Assembly (NCBI RefSeq): GCF_000828085.3
Contig: NZ_JXCA02000016.1
Location: forward strand, 267,659-331,658
DNA length: 64,000 nt
Source of the DNA: Scytonema tolypothrichoides VB-61278
GTDB taxonomy: Bacteria; Cyanobacteriota; Cyanobacteriia; Cyanobacteriales; Nostocaceae
Direction: 5' to 3'
Below the pieces are notes generated by a model. The model was given only the letters and a program-made list of their open reading frames with translations, was not told the DNA's origin and made no database searches. Both the position numbers and the translations under genes were made by a program. Below, one piece after another: positions 3,767-11,160 of this stretch; the first letter of the stretch is position 1; the number at the start of each line of letters is the position of its first letter.

Positions 3767-5503
3767 CTAAAACAAAAAATAACGCTGTGTCATAGGCAAA
3801 GAGGTAGCAGGTTCACAAGTTAACAACTTCCCATCTACTCTCACATCGAAAGTTTCTGGATCGACATCAATTTGTGGGGTAGCGTCGTTGAGTTTCAAAT
3901 CTGCCTTTCTCAACTCACGTGTTTTGGAAACTGCTACCGTCCTAGTTTTTAAACCAAGTTTTTCGGGTACACCCTGTTTCAAGGCTTCATTAGAAACGAA
4001 AGTTATAGAAGTTTCAGCCATTGCGCCGCCAAAGCTACCAAACATTGGGCGCATATGAACTGGTTCCGGAGTGGAGATACTAGCATTAGGATCGCCCATT
4101 TGTGAGTAAGCAATCATTCCTCCTTTGATCACAGTCTCTGGTTTGACGCCAAAAAATGCTGGCTTCCACAAACACAAATCTGCCAGCTTCCCTTCTTCAA
4201 CAGAACCTATATGATCTGCAACGCCGTGAGCGATCGCAGGATTAATAGTGTATTTAGCAATGTAGCGTTTTGCCCTAAAATTATCATGGGTTTGGTGAGG
4301 ATGACCACCAGGATTCGGTAATAATCCCTTCTGTACTTTCATCTTATGGGCAGTTTGCCAAGTCCGAGTAATCACTTCCCCTACCCTTCCCATTGCTTGA
4401 GAATCGGAAGACATAATACTGATAATCCCCATATCATGCAAAATGTCCTCAGCCGCAATCGTTTCCTTGCGAATTCTCGATTCAGCAAATTTCACATCTT
4501 CACGAATGTTTTTATCGAGGTGATGACACACCATCAACATATCGAGATGTTCGTCGAAAGTATTGATGGTGTAGGGACGAGTCGGATTAGTAGAAGCAGG
4601 CAAAACATTTGCTAGACTACAGACTTTCAGAATATCAGGCGCGTGACCACCACCTGCACCTTCTGTATGGAAGGTGTGAATAACACGGTTTTTAAAAGCA
4701 GCTATGGTGTTTTCCACAAATCCCGCTTCATTCAGGGAGTCAGTGTGAATTGCGACTTGTACATCGTACTCATCTGCAACCGAAAGACAAGTATCAATCG
4801 CATTCGCTGTAGTTCCCCAGTCTTCGTGCAGCTTTAAACCCATAACTCCCGCAGCAACTTGCTCTATCAATCCTTCAGGTTTGCTAGTATTACCTTTACC
4901 CAAGAAACCAACATTGACAGGGAAGCCATCAGCCGCTTGTAGCATGCGGTAAATATTCCAAGGACCAGGAGTACAAGTCGTCGCGAGAGTCCCCGTAGCT
5001 GAACCAGTACCACCGCCAATTAAGGTTGTCGTACCAGAGGCGATCGCAGTTTCGATTTGCTGAGGACAGATAAAGTGAATGTGAGTATCAATCGCCCCAG
5101 CAGTCAGAATTTTGCCTTCTCCTGCTATAGCTTCCGTTCCAGGACCAATAATAATATCTATGTTGTCTTGTGTGTAGGGATTACCTGCTTTACCAATTTT
5201 AAAAATTTTCCCGTCTTTAATGCCGACATCTGCTTTAATAATGCCTGACCAATCAAGAATCAAAGCGTTGGTGATCACCACATCTACCGCACCATCAGCA
5301 TTTGAAATGGGGGATTGTCCCATTCCATCTCGAATCACCTTACCACCACCGAATTTAACCTCTTCGCCGTAAAGCGTACCACCATAGGTAGTATAGTCTT
5401 GTTCCACTTCGATGAACAAATCCGTATCAGCAAGACGGATGCGATCGCCAATCGTAGGACCAAAAGTATTGGTATATTCCCGTCGGTTCATAAAATAACT
5501 CAT
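3767..5503 (-). CDS. ureC: Urease subunit alpha (catalytic)
   Basis: Nickel-dependent urease catalytic subunit, which hydrolyses urea to ammonia and carbamate in the cytoplasm. All active-site residues are visible, numbered from the ATG at 5503: H141 and H143 in [10 protein letters not shown], carbamylated K224 and H226 in [10 protein letters not shown]253, H279, the flap C326-H327 in MVCHHLD, and D367 in SSDSQAMGR. There is a 5-residue insertion creating [11 protein letters not shown], where most ureases have a single YGEE/YGDE. The lead-in [17 protein letters not shown] fits the family, so the ATG is preferred to the TTG two codons earlier. It is the last gene of the locus, separated from ureF by 316 bases that hold a MITE, whereas ureA and ureB lie 4-5 kb away. 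Confidence 0.97.
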
Positions 5504-5608
5504 GTTCAATATCTTTCTAGTAAAAAATTACCTTGTATAAAATCACTCGTAGGGTGCGTTATGGCTGTAGCCTAACGAATCGCACTTGCTTTAGGCACTT
5601 TCATCATT

Positions 5609-5819: not shown

Positions 5820-6524
5820 CTAACTAGCAAATAATCTCTGACCCAGTTTTTGATGTCGCATTTGAGCAATATCTATAGCCGGAGTACAAGACCACATTTC
5901 CTCCAGACTCATTGATGCAGCAGTTTGGTACACTATCTCAATCTCTGGTGCTAGCTGAAGCAAAACCCGTTGTGCTTGCAGATGTCCCACAACGCTTAAA
6001 CGGATCGCAGCCCCCAACAACCCAGTCACGAAGCTATGCAAAAAACCCAGCACTGTATCCTGTTCACTCAAAAGAGCTGCTCTACCAACTACAGCAAAAA
6101 CAACAGGATGCAAGCAATTAATTTTACCTTTGGCAGCATCTTGATTTAAAATATCTAATTGAGAGTCTTGCCAAGTCGAACTGGCAACCATGAGCAACGC
6201 TCGTCCGCTTTTGCGCTGGGTTTCGCGCGTTTTCTCGACTAGGGTTTGAGCAAATAGTCTAGCATCTGCAGCTCGTACTGCTTCCAAGTCATTAATCGCA
6301 CTTCCCCGGTAAGCATGGATAAGTGCTACTGTATCTGTGACTCCTACCTTGTTATGTAATAGTAGCCGCAGAAAAGTTTGCAAATCTTCTGATCCACGCA
6401 GTTGATTTTCTTGGACTAAAGATTCTAACCCGTGAGATAAAGTAAAAGAGCCAGAGGGGAAGAAAGAATCAGACAACTGCATTAAAGCGAGTTGTTGGGC
6501 GATCGCAGATGCAGGTAAACTCAT
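5820..6524 (-). CDS. ureF: Urease accessory protein UreF
   Basis: UreF acts with UreD and UreG in the GTP-dependent delivery of nickel to apo-urease. The protein (234 aa) has the family N-terminal signature [21 protein letters not shown] and the mid-region GLLGAAIRL, followed by a helical C-terminus ending [13 protein letters not shown]. It starts at an ATG that overlaps the ureE stop in ATGA, so translation is probably coupled. It is part of the ureG-D-E-F run of overlapping genes. Confidence 0.93.
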
Positions 6525-7045
6525 GAGCTGTGATCGTGATGACTGTGTTGAGCAAAGTCGAGATGTTGTTGTGGCGATCGCACCTCAAAGTCAATCTCTA
6601 ACCCAGGAATCTGAAAATCCCGAACCGTTGATTCCATAACTTTTACATCTGCTGCTAGTTGAACGTAGAGCTTACCATCTTGCACGATAATAGGCCAATG
6701 GTGATTACCCAAGACATGACCGAGATGAACCAATTCAATCGGACGCTCAGTCACTGGCTCAGTAAAACTAAGTACCATGACCTTTTGCTCTTGCAGATGA
6801 ATCAGTAATAGCTTACCATCTTCCGTTTCTAAAACATCTCCTTCCCGCAATGCCCAATCTCGACTTTTCACAATTCCTACAGCCACACCAGTAGTCGTGT
6901 GAGCGTGAATTCGACCTTTGCGGCTATCAGTTTGACTGATATGAACTTCCAAGCAAAGTGCTGAGGAACAAGCTTTTTCTATCCGTTCAGATAAGCTGAC
7001 ATTTTCTATTGAATTGCCCAGGTAAATTTCTGCTAATTCAGTCAT
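6521..7045 (-). CDS. ureE: Urease accessory protein UreE
   Basis: Nickel metallochaperone that supplies Ni to the UreDFG complex. The 174-residue protein has the UreE N-terminal peptide-binding domain (with [19 protein letters not shown]) and the metal-binding domain signature [12 protein letters not shown]. It ends in a short histidine-rich tail (HSHHDHSS) typical of UreE nickel binding. Start and stop overlap ureD and ureF by four bases (ATGA) on each side, so the genes form one translationally coupled operon. Confidence 0.93.
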
Positions 7046-7944
7046 AAATCATTGGGTAAAAGAGGTTGAGCAATAGAGCGACGCACGCAGTTTAAAGCGT
7101 ATTTTAAAAACTTTTTGAGTTCATGAGTTCCACTAGCCATAGCTCTAATCAGCAGACCCTTGTTTCTGGGTAAAATTGAGCTTGCGACAGTCAGACATGA
7201 GCAGTTAGCTGCTTCTAAGTCTTCTACATTTTTACTCAATAATTCCAGATTAGTTTCAGGTAAAACTATAATGAAATTACCAAAAACAGGTGAATCAGCA
7301 AATAGGTTAGTCTTAGTGAAAGGATTTCCTTTTCCTTCCAAGCGCATAGCATCAGTAAACCATAGCTCTCCACAAGTAGAACTCACTTGCAAGCGACTAA
7401 AATAGTGGTTAAACTGGAAAAATTCTCCCCTAGCCAGCCTTCCAGGTAGAATCATTTCACTCAAAAATAATCTTCCAGTCGGATGAATCTTAATATTTAT
7501 AGTTTGCTCCAAAGTTGCATCAGCAAACAAAATTAATGGTTCTGGTACAAACTCTAACGTTGCTCCTTCCCCAATCTCAATTTCATAATTAGTTGTTGCT
7601 TTTGAGCCTGCTATGGGCATCGAATGAACCTTAGTTGCAGCCTGTTCCGTAAGATAAAGACTAGTATGAGCTGCTAGTTGCAAAGATATATTCAACTTAT
7701 CTTGTGCCAGTAAACCTGGAGATGTGCTCATAACATAGAGATAAGCACGCTGAAAATCAGCATCATCGAGATAAAATACCCGAGATATCCTCAAAGGATA
7801 AGCTGTGTACTGATGGCTGAGAATAGTTTGACCAAAGCGATTGCCCGTTCGCGCAGCGTGCGCTTTGCGCTCAGGGCAGACTTCTCGCGGCGTAGCGCAC
7901 TTCAGCCCTAACTCCAAGTTATAGCGCTTCTCATCTACGTCCAT
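7042..7944 (-). CDS. ureD: Urease accessory protein UreD (UreH)
   Basis: UreD binds apo-urease directly and forms the tunnel for nickel delivery with UreF and UreG. The 300-residue protein keeps the family's beta-rich layout, with LTEQAATKVHSMP (matching the usual TTAAASKIYR-type region), LEFVPEPLILFADATL and GRLARGEFFQFN. It is more divergent than the usual cyanobacterial UreD. Residues about 16-35 (7840-7899) look foreign: Cys/Arg/Ala-rich, not expected in the family, and encoded by a GC-rich palindromic stretch. That suggests an in-frame insertion of a short repeat element. The gene overlaps ureG by 14 bases and ureE by 4. Confidence 0.88.
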   Translation of the reverse strand: MDVDEKRYNLELGLKCATPREVCPERKAHAARTGNRFGQTILSHQYTAYPLRISRVFYLDDADFQRAYLYVMSTSPGLLAQDKLNISLQLAAHTSLYLTEQAATKVHSMPIAGSKATTNYEIEIGEGATLEFVPEPLILFADATLEQTINIKIHPTGRLFLSEMILPGRLARGEFFQFNHYFSRLQVSSTCGELWFTDAMRLEGKGNPFTKTNLFADSPVFGNFIIVLPETNLELLSKNVEDLEAANCSCLTVASSILPRNKGLLIRAMASGTHELKKFLKYALNCVRRSIAQPLLPNDL

Positions 7945-8608
7945 CTACTTTGGCGTCCATCTGCGGTTCCTCAACTCTTTGATGTGTTGCGGAAGCACTG
8001 CGAAACAGAACTGTTTCCAGAATAAAATTGATCACCTCGTCCAATCCTTCTCCCGTCTTGCAATTAGTATATGCAATAGGTTTACCTCGACGGTATAGCG
8101 GGGCTTCTTTCCGGATTAACTCCAAATCAGCACCAACATAAGGAGCAATATCAATTTTATTCACCACCGCTAAATCAGCTTGTACAAAGCCAGGACCATT
8201 TTTACGAGGGATATCATCTCCCGCACCCACATCAATCACAAAAATATACGAATCCACCAAATCATAACTAAAAGTGGAGGCAAGATTATCACCACCACTT
8301 TCAATCAAGATTAAGTCTAATTCAGGAATCAGTAACTCAAAATCCTTCACTGCTAAAAGATTCATAGTCGGGTCTTCCCGAATTGCTGTGTGTGGACAGC
8401 TACCTGTTTCTACTCCTATAATCCTTTCTGCTGGCAGAAACCCGCGACTTTTGAGTCGGTCTGCATCTTCCGTAGTTAGTAAGTCATTGGTGACAACTGC
8501 TACTTCAATACCTTGATTCATCAATATTGGGACTATAGACTCTATGAGAGCTGTTTTTCCGCTACCTACTGGTCCCCCAATCCCCAGTCGAGCTGCTGAC
8601 TTTAGCAT
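7931..8608 (-). CDS. ureG: Urease accessory GTPase UreG
   Basis: SIMIBI-class GTPase that powers nickel insertion into urease. Visible motifs are the P-loop GGPVGSGKTALIE at residues 11-23, the nickel-site CPH in GSCPHTAIREDPTMN, the Walker-B-like LILIESGGDNLAS, and the base-specificity motif NKIDIAPYVGADL. The C-terminal 20 residues or so (ending MDAKVDGRR) extend past the usual UreG end and overlap the start of ureD. It is the first gene of the G-D-E-F run; about 285 bases separate it from a divergent propeller gene. Confidence 0.95.
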   Translation of the reverse strand: MLKSAARLGIGGPVGSGKTALIESIVPILMNQGIEVAVVTNDLLTTEDADRLKSRGFLPAERIIGVETGSCPHTAIREDPTMNLLAVKDFELLIPELDLILIESGGDNLASTFSYDLVDSYIFVIDVGAGDDIPRKNGPGFVQADLAVVNKIDIAPYVGADLELIRKEAPLYRRGKPIAYTNCKTGEGLDEVINFILETVLFRSASATHQRVEEPQMDAKVDGRR

Positions 8609-8893
8609 GGCTAATCTATCCTGCTTGAACTCTTGGAGACTGCTAGTATAATCAGACTTTAGCTATTTTTATTATTCTACAGTAGTTGTTACATACACAC
8701 GCAGTCAGTTATGTAGCCTAAATCCTTAAGTCGAATCCAGACGAGTGATGACACTTATCCTCATGCTTATGACTGAGTTCAGGCTTGAACGAATTCAGTA
8801 CAGTAGATTCAAAAGCAGGTGCCGAAGGACTGAGCCATTTAGTACGACAGATGCTCATAATGGCAGCACCGATGAGGTTTGGAGGTTCAAACA

Positions 8894-9907
8894 ATGGATA
8901 ATACTCTACAGCAAATAGTCGAGCAGGTTGAGCCGACTTCACACAAGCAAACAGATACAGATTTTGCCAATGCCTCTGCGACGATACACAAACCCGTAAT
9001 AATAGCAGGAACATCTGACGGCTTGCTGTTTCTCGATTCCAGGCAATATGTTGAACTTGAAGGCCATTCTATCACTGCTCTTGCCTCAAGCCCTGATGGG
9101 TTGTGGGTGATAGTTGATCGCAACTCGGTATGGCATCGCAACCCAGAGGGTGAGTGGCATCAAATAACTTCAATTGATGATTTACGGCTAAATTGTATCT
9201 TGCCTTATAATGGGGCAGTTTTAGTTGGGACATCACAAGCTCATCTCATCCGTATTGCAGACGGAAGCACGAATCGTATCAATTGCTTTGAGAAGGCTCA
9301 GGGACGAGATGAATGGTATACGCCGTGGGGTGGTCCTCCAGATGTTCGTTCGATGGCTATAGGTCAATCTGGTGAACTCTACGTGAATGTGCACGTTGGA
9401 GGCATTTTGCGCTCTGATGACCAGGGTAAGTCATGGCAACCCACTATCGACGTTGATGCAGATGTCCATGAAGTACGGACAGTTCCATCTCATCCGGATC
9501 TTGTGTTGGCGGCTACGGCCCAGGGGCTGGCTGTGAGTAAAGATAGAGGGAATTCTTGGAGGTTTTCACATGAAAACCTACATGCTGCTTACGCACGAGC
9601 CATAGCTGTGTGTGAAGAAACCATTTTGATCAGTGCTTCTACCGGTCCAAGTGGTCACAAAGCAGCCATCTATCGACACCCACTCGACAAGCCAGGAGCT
9701 TTCGAGAAATGTGAGCGAGGGCTGCCAGAGTGGTTCAATCACAATATCAACACGGGAACCCTTGCTACTACAGGGAATTTAGCTGCTTTCGGAACTAGTG
9801 AGGGTCAAGTCTTTTTCTCGGACGATGCTGGGATTACGTGGAAGCAAGTTGCAGCAGATTTGTCTCCAATCTGCTGTCTGAATCTTATGGCGACTTCCAA
9901 GAAATAA
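8894..9907 (+). CDS. Asp-box (BNR) beta-propeller protein
   Basis: A 337-residue protein built of repeated beta-propeller blades. Three Asp-box motifs are evident: SDDQGKSW (about residue 174), SKDRGNSW and SDDAGITW near the C-terminus. Each follows a GxLRSDD-type strand, as in sialidase/VPS10/YCF48-like propellers. No signal peptide is seen, so it is probably cytoplasmic. I choose the ATG at 8894 because GGAGG lies 8 bases before it; a TTG at 8879 is also in frame. It runs opposite to the urease genes and sits between ureB and ureG. Its substrate or partner is unknown; a link to urease rests on position only. Confidence 0.8.
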   Translation: MDNTLQQIVEQVEPTSHKQTDTDFANASATIHKPVIIAGTSDGLLFLDSRQYVELEGHSITALASSPDGLWVIVDRNSVWHRNPEGEWHQITSIDDLRLNCILPYNGAVLVGTSQAHLIRIADGSTNRINCFEKAQGRDEWYTPWGGPPDVRSMAIGQSGELYVNVHVGGILRSDDQGKSWQPTIDVDADVHEVRTVPSHPDLVLAATAQGLAVSKDRGNSWRFSHENLHAAYARAIAVCEETILISASTGPSGHKAAIYRHPLDKPGAFEKCERGLPEWFNHNINTGTLATTGNLAAFGTSEGQVFFSDDAGITWKQVAADLSPICCLNLMATSKK

Positions 9908-9957: not shown

Positions 9958-10584
9958 TCATTTTTTCTGTTTTTCTAAAGACCCATTCACTAATCCATTA
10001 AAACCATAGATTTCACGGCTACCTCCGAATGGGACTAACTCGACTTCTTTTTCATCTCCTGGTTCAAATCTGATTGCTGTCCCTGCTGGAATATTTAAGC
10101 GCTTACCGTAAGCTTGATTGCGGTCAAATTGCAGACCTTTCTTGTCTTGACTGCCATCATTAACTTCATAAAAGTGGAAATGAGAACCAACTTGAATTGG
10201 GCGATCGCCTTGATTACTCACTCTAATTTTGGTAATCTTTCGCCCAGCATTGAGTTCAATTGGTTCTGATTTAGTAACTATTATTTGTCCTGGAGTCATT
10301 ACTATTTTTTCGACTTTAATCGAGGAAGCCTCGTTGTTAAAGTTTTTGCCTTCAACTTTAACATTTCTCAGGTCGCCGACGTTACTAGTAAAGGTTTTAC
10401 TCCGACCTCGAAATTCTTCGTATTCATATATAGTGACTTTCATGCCTGCTGGCACCGTTAAGGAACTCAGCTTATTGTCACCAATTCCCAAATCGTAAAT
10501 ATTATACTCTCCTTCCGCAAGTTCCTTATGATTTCCTTTGTAGTTAGGAGCTTCATAAAGCACCACTTTGTTAGTTGTATACAT
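9958..10584 (-). CDS. ureB: Beta/gamma-crystallin domain fused to urease subunit beta
   Basis: The C-terminal 113 residues are a complete urease beta subunit, starting M96[19 protein letters not shown] with the signatures [38 protein letters not shown] and GFNGLVNG. The first ~93 residues form a beta/gamma-crystallin domain. It has two Greek-key halves ([11 protein letters not shown] and [11 protein letters not shown]), each with an intact (N/D)(N/D)xx(S/T)S calcium site: D36-N37-K-L-S40-S41 and N83-N84-E-A-S87-S88. UreB normally stands alone at about 100-110 aa. A start at M96 (10299) would give a normal UreB, but the upstream frame is continuous and the ATG at 10584 is preceded by an AAGGGA ribosome site. 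UreA lies 270 bases upstream on the same strand. Confidence 0.93.
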
Positions 10585-10703
10585 TTAAAAATTCCCTTGT
10601 TATCAATTCATTATCTAACTTTCTGCATGTTTTTTAAAAGCAGGCGCACTATAACGACACATCACCCGCTAGGAATGAAAGAAACTGCATCTCTCTTCTT
10701 AAA

Positions 10704-10838
10704 ACAGTTATCAGTTATCAGTTATCAGTTACCAGTTATCAGTTACCAGTTATCAGTTGTCAAGCAGATTTTTTGTTCTTTGTTCACTGGTCACTGTTCA
10801 CTGGTCACTGGTCACTGTTCACTGTTCACTGTTTACTG
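10704..10838. repeat. Heptameric tandem repeats (STRR) between ureA and ureB
   Basis: Two adjoining 7-bp tandem arrays occupy the ureA-ureB gap: CAGTTAT/CAGTTAC units at 10704-10760 and TTCACTG/GTCACTG units at about 10779-10838. Both classes recur throughout the window. Such short tandem repeats are typical of heterocystous cyanobacteria. Confidence 0.85.
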
Positions 10839-10854
10839 TATTTCTTCAGAGATT

Positions 10855-11160
10855 TTAGTCTTGAATTGGATTATGTACTGTTACTAATTTCGTTCCATCA
10901 GGAAAGGTTGCTTCTACTTGCACTTCATGGATCATTTCTGCTATTCCCTCCATCACATCATCCCTTTTCAATAGCTTTCCTCCCTCACTCATTAATTGAC
11001 TCACAGTTTTTCCTTCTCTTGCGCCTTCTAAAATAGCAGCAGAGATATATGCCACTGCTTCGGGATAATTTAGCTTTAAACCTTTGTCTTTACGTCTTTC
11101 TGCTACTAAAGCCGCCGTGAAAATGAGCAGTTTATCTTTTTCTTGAGGTGATAGTTGCAT
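10855..11160 (-). CDS. ureA: Urease subunit gamma
   Basis: Smallest structural subunit of urease, packing against the alpha subunit in the (ABC)3 trimer. The 101-residue protein is full length: [20 protein letters not shown] at the start, then [19 protein letters not shown] and [21 protein letters not shown] at the end. An AAAGGAA ribosome site lies 6-7 bases before the ATG. It heads the minus-strand locus, and the next gene is the crystallin-UreB fusion, separated by a repeat-filled gap. Confidence 0.96.

Follow-up and report, generated by a model that had tools for sequence, protein, structure and literature searches.

Urease is a much-studied enzyme. Two canonical calcium motifs are typical of the microbial beta/gamma-crystallins, a protein family with members such as protein S, clostrillin, flavollin and hahellin. 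It has been described for the urease of Yersinia that an N-terminal extension of the beta subunit (UreB) lies outside the holoenzyme, at the split between the UreA and UreB chains (PMC7547064). Beta/gamma-crystallin domains have been reported to bind calcium with affinities of 4-100 µM, most of them keeping their shape on binding (PMC3551895). The same source describes a Vibrio beta/gamma domain that self-associates and whose melting point is raised by calcium by 10-14 degrees, and states that, for other beta/gamma-crystallins, no effect of calcium on association is known. Lens members of the superfamily have a low affinity for calcium (PMC8639718), and calcium binding is no requirement for membership.

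In the window (the whole stretch of 64,000 nucleotides of Scytonema tolypothrichoides VB-61278 that was analysed), these two families meet in a single gene, cry::ureB (9958..10584, minus strand). The gene is one frame of 208 amino acids, running from an ATG at 10584 to a TGA stop at 9960-9958; the plus strand of the same stretch contains many stops. Residues 1-95 (10300..10584, minus) match PF00030 (Crystall, 1.6e-8, in two stretches) and carry two Greek-key signatures. They are followed from M96 by the urease beta subunit (9958..10299, minus), with Pfam analysis placing PF00699 (Urease_beta) at residues 98-201 (1.2e-42; 144.3 bits against a cut-off of 25). Residues 96-205 also match positions 1-103 of the 104 positions of the NCBIfam profile for urease subunit beta (NF009682; 151.3 bits, cut-off 129), and this near-full-length match above the cut-off indicates that UreB is complete from M96. 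At the V95-M96 junction the last crystallin strand enters UreB without a linker.

A sequence search of the PDB matched residues 1-95 to solved gamma-crystallins, hahellin, protein S and clostrillin. As AF2 gave a poor model of the UreB part when run on the full-length protein (mean pLDDT 56), the domain was modelled alone, from seven sequences. The resulting model has a mean pLDDT of 85.6, and Foldseek comparison with protein S, clostrillin, hahellin and flavollin gave TM values of about 0.7 (1nps, 3so1, 2kp5). With the whole-protein model Foldseek listed both families, the UreB matches having an rmsd of at least 12 Å; assignment of that part therefore rests on sequence. Two Greek-key signatures (Y/FxxxxF/YxG) are present in all ten fused proteins described below, as in members of the beta/gamma-crystallin superfamily. 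The original prediction, which was made from this DNA and gave no strand, had proposed an uninterrupted frame, a complete UreB from M96 and a crystallin fold in the N-terminal part, the last of these to stand or fall with structure prediction. No stop separates the domains, the UreB profiles agree on its completeness and the model matches beta/gamma-crystallins, so that all three proposals hold. A nickel-binding crystallin, an idea taken from the engineered nickel clostrillin 5ht8, was also considered and was rejected, there being no histidine common to the ten aligned fused domains.

The fusion gene lies in a urease cluster encoded on the minus strand. The cluster includes ureA (10855..11160; PF00547, TIGR00193), encoding a gamma subunit of 101 amino acids that lacks a C-terminal tail, and ureC (3767..5509; TIGR01792, PF00449, PF01979), encoding the alpha subunit. 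The accessory genes are ureG (7931..8608; TIGR00101), ureD (7042..7944; PF01774), ureE (6521..7045; PF02814, PF05194) and ureF (5820..6524; PF01730). The full-length profile match, the presence of ureA, ureC and accessory genes nearby and the finding of no other UreB in the genome identify the cry::ureB product as a urease beta subunit, which would be expected to form an active nickel urease with UreA and UreC. The gamma-beta fused UreA of the Helicobacter type is not what is seen here, ureA being a separate gene. The gap between ureA and cry::ureB ranges from 43 to 270 nt across the ten fused genomes; that of the window contains 7-bp tandem repeat arrays (CAGTTAT, TGTTCAC) at 10705-10839. A BNR/sortilin-like gene (8879-9907, plus strand) lies antisense inside the cluster, downstream of cry::ureB. 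This gene was seen in all five fused Brasilonema genomes, before ureG where both share one contig, and is absent from the stretches of G038, G030, G442 and G568.

A search of 217 genomes of the family gave matches in 25, nine of which carry the fusion (G000-G004, G038, G442, G568 and G030), while the remaining 16 hold only other crystallin proteins. The fusion was found in seven of 99 related genomes (G000 to G004, G038 and G030), in two of the 386 genomes of a phylum sample and in three of the 388 of an order sample, the third being a metagenome-assembled genome (MAG) labelled Microcoleus. With this MAG added to the nine family genomes, ten species-level genomes carry the fusion, a small group of filamentous cyanobacteria. 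The genomes concerned include those of Brasilonema bromeliae, B. angustatum, Brasilonema sp. CT11, Anabaena azotica and a Cyanocohniella sp. The fusion contig of the MAG is only 5.7 kb long, so faulty binning may account for its Microcoleus label. A UreB search returned a single match per genome in all ten, namely the fusion itself, two of these genomes being incomplete (G002, 89%; the MAG, G804, 87%). No frameshift or internal stop occurs in any of the ten fusion genes. The fusion is a genuine gene, as had been proposed, and its recurrence with identical architecture in ten genomes rules out a sequencing error or chimera.

Two types of urease cluster were found among the cyanobacteria compared. 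UreD proteins sharing 65% identity or more with that of the window over the aligned part were found in 19 of the 217 family genomes (next best match 28%), of which nine are fused and ten unfused; G005 and G006, of the window's own genus, have the other urease type with an ordinary UreB. Each of the 19 genomes has one UreD match, and within the family either cluster type seems to exclude the other. The gene order ureA-ureB-ureG-ureD-ureE-ureF is common to fused and unfused clusters of the window's type. It is then followed by ureC in seven of the ten fused loci fetched (ureC is absent from the fetched stretch of G003, and in G002 and the MAG the contig is too short to show it) and in only some of the unfused loci. 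By eye, many unfused UreB proteins of this cluster type possess some 15-20 extra residues after HFHFYEVN or its variants (L098-L103, L105-L107 and L110); the loop of fused UreB proteins has none to about 11.

In a tree of the six urease proteins other than UreB (24 rows, outgroup G097, with G369 and G070 left out), the ten fused rows form one clade (92/100, the bootstrap of 92 being just under the 95 mark), which adjoins unfused relatives. The fused clade receives a support of 100/98 from UreB alone and of 100/100 from the crystallin domain, the latter in a tree of the ten fused rows plus 18 drawn from 15 further loci, a subset of the crystallin matches found. One fusion event would most simply account for these trees, and the patchy spread of the cluster suggests lateral transfer or repeated loss. 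An origin from plasmids or phages was rejected: the three plasmid records that match are all distant crystallins (37-39% identity), and none of the six matching phage-collection records covers 80% of the query, the five listed matching the UreB part only.

The nearest relatives found of the domain are modules in other cyanobacterial proteins, about 36-53% identical to it. Their partner proteins are subtilase, astacin, a Vps62-like protein and haem peroxidase, and a free protein of 90 residues was also found. The module is C-terminal in the subtilases and astacins and N-terminal in the haem peroxidase. Compared with the other cyanobacterial copies aligned, the UreB-linked crystallins share a loop before motif 2 that is about six residues longer. 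One locus of another cyanobacterium (L114:1447-3249, plus strand) has the beta/gamma-crystallin joined N-terminally to a haem peroxidase of animal type (PF03098). Two further loci (L115:1399-2022, minus; L116:1240-1863, plus) each contain a frame of 208 residues with a crystallin domain in the middle of the protein, 51-53% identical to the urease-linked domain.

In the gamma/beta fusion profile NF009671, UreA accounts for positions 1-100, and the match to the fusion protein (its residues 93-207) begins at position 107, so the domain occupies the site of a short linker or chain break in other ureases. From this homology and the published Yersinia structure, which places the N-terminal end of UreB outside (PMC7547064), the domain should lie on the exterior of the enzyme, where the chain is split between UreA and UreB. 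The surface position of the original prediction agrees with this. UreA has 101 residues in all ten fused genomes, whereas in 11 of 13 unfused relatives it has a tail and 106-109 residues, a contrast that amounts phylogenetically to about one comparison. The distant G097, with a UreA of 105 residues, stands outside this count and would bring it to 12 of 14. The unfused G049 and G077 are also without the tail, with a UreA of 100 residues. The pattern fits a situation as if UreA tail and crystallin domain competed for one place or a shared surface.

The best explanation, adopted here tentatively as one that is quite possibly correct, would be that the crystallin domain is a rigid structural cap or association module, which gains extra stability with calcium where its motifs are intact. 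As the sequences show, a beta/gamma-crystallin module was added, most simply once, at the front of ureB within one of the two cluster types, and no UreB other than the fused one was found in the genomes concerned. From its place on the outer face at the UreA/UreB split, and judging by the behaviour of the family, the domain may stabilise the packing of UreA and UreB or link trimers. In species with intact motifs the added stability would come as calcium rises, for example under osmotic, light or nitrogen stress. The domain would not be expected to take part in catalysis.

A very different account, in which translation of UreB starts at M96 while the crystallin part belongs to a gene of its own or arises from faulty assembly, can be given hardly any credence. 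Codon 96 is ATG in eight of the ten genes, as that account would have it, but ACT or AAT replaces it in G038 and G442, leaving UreB without a start there, and the two parts have a common frame in ten genomes. By eye, an AGG/GGA-type core precedes M1 in all ten fused genes (in the window AAGGGAA, 10592..10598, minus, the likely ribosome site of the fusion start), whereas no such core lies within 13 nt before codon 96 in any of them; AAGG or AGGA is found at least 14 nt before this codon in three (G030, G568 and the MAG). The ribosome site of its own that the original prediction had given to the ureB ATG is thus not borne out, and an independent start at M96 is ruled out by the two genes without a start codon and the ten without a nearby ribosome site. 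It is also very unlikely that the domain is a neutral passenger, that is, an accidental fusion tolerated since the UreB end is exposed. Restriction of the fusion to one clade would suit such a history, as would the unfused relatives of the cluster, which retain their urease genes without the domain. Set against this, mean pairwise dN/dS over the ten species is 0.13 for the crystallin domain (44 of 45 pairs usable; a rough ratio, mean dS being about 1.0) and 0.15 for UreB (45 of 45). Within Brasilonema the values are 0.14 and 0.10 (10 of 10 pairs each; dS of 0.25 and 0.16, respectively). With ratios close to those of UreB, the crystallin domain is maintained by purifying selection, and neither the loss of a Greek-key signature nor a disrupted frame, which would speak for a passenger, is seen among the ten genes.

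A role for calcium beyond added stability is harder to sustain. The two intact (N/D)(N/D)xx(S/T)S motifs that had been claimed are present in the window, as read from its sequence: DNKLSS at residues 36-41 (10462..10479, minus) and NNEASS at residues 83-88 (10321..10338, minus). Both motifs are canonical in six of the ten fused genomes, window included, and at least one is in nine; one is broken in G001, G030 and G038, and both are altered in G004. Conservation of the eight motif columns is 0.89, compared with 0.85 elsewhere, and a level of 0.89 is also attained by 27% of randomly drawn eight-column sets. A switch, in which calcium binding would change urease activity, assembly or nickel activation and so couple urea use to the calcium signals of nitrogen or osmotic stress, is considered doubtful. 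The motifs are in its favour, as is the cytosolic calcium of Anabaena, reported at about 0.2 µM at rest with transients to 4 µM on stress and a sustained rise after nitrogen step-down (PMC7065334). Mature heterocysts are likewise described as holding about tenfold more free calcium than vegetative cells (PMC4284465). The affinities of 4-100 µM given for the family (PMC3551895) exceed the resting level, however, so that little of the predicted domain should carry calcium in resting cells, except if it binds as tightly as the strongest members of this range or more tightly still. The lack of a canonical motif in G004, the broken motifs elsewhere, the motif columns that are not clearly more conserved than the remaining ones and the unchanged shape of most family members on binding also argue against a switch. 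Of the tie between calcium and urease that had been foreseen, the intact motifs of the window stand and the tie itself is weakened. It is quite unlikely that urease is gated by calcium, with the domain being loaded through calcium signals that arise in nitrogen starvation or osmotic stress, altering trimer association or UreD-driven nickel activation and so coupling the breakdown of urea to cellular calcium or to heterocysts. Of doubtful standing, too, is a localising role, in which the domain would tether urease to a protein, polysaccharide or membrane, or link trimers into larger bodies. The outward-facing end of UreB (PMC7547064), the oligomerisation of at least one beta/gamma domain (PMC3551895) and the similar modules on subtilase, astacin, haem peroxidase and Vps62-like proteins in these cyanobacteria are consistent with it. 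Opposing it, nothing in the gene neighbourhood points to a partner, and no signal peptide is apparent by eye at M1.

Whether as the structural cap or association module preferred here or in another role, a domain of calcium-binding type is fixed in the sole UreB found of ten genomes, for which the unfused relatives of the cluster form a natural control. Should stability, assembly or nickel activation prove to be tuned by the domain, the function of UreB could readily be probed through it, and cyanobacterial nitrogen metabolism might be directly linked to calcium. To our knowledge, no urease subunit with a foreign folded domain has been described. Searches of the open-licence full text of PubMed Central gave no paper on a urease-crystallin combination or on a Brasilonema urease, in keeping with the original prediction, which knew of no urease with this domain.

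Like the bacterial three-subunit ureases of the Klebsiella and Sporosarcina type, the present locus encodes a complete UreB (PF00699), with UreA, C, D, E, F and G encoded nearby; unlike them, its UreB begins with a predicted folded domain of 95 residues. UreB of Yersinia enterocolitica bears extra residues at the same end, outside and at the UreA/UreB split, but these are described as 20-30 disordered residues (PMC7547064), whereas the domain here is predicted to fold as a crystallin. In the Helicobacter-type UreA (NF009671) the start of the beta part also bears a fusion; there it is the gamma subunit that is fused, while here UreA is separate and UreB is joined to a domain that does not belong to urease. 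Protein S, clostrillin, flavollin and hahellin share with the domain their fold, Greek-key signatures and two calcium motifs, which here have become part of a metabolic enzyme. The cyanobacterial crystallins on subtilase, astacin and haem peroxidase are the closest sequence relatives found, with different partner proteins. The crystallin-UreB protein is thus a new domain architecture of a known enzyme, and not a new kind of system.
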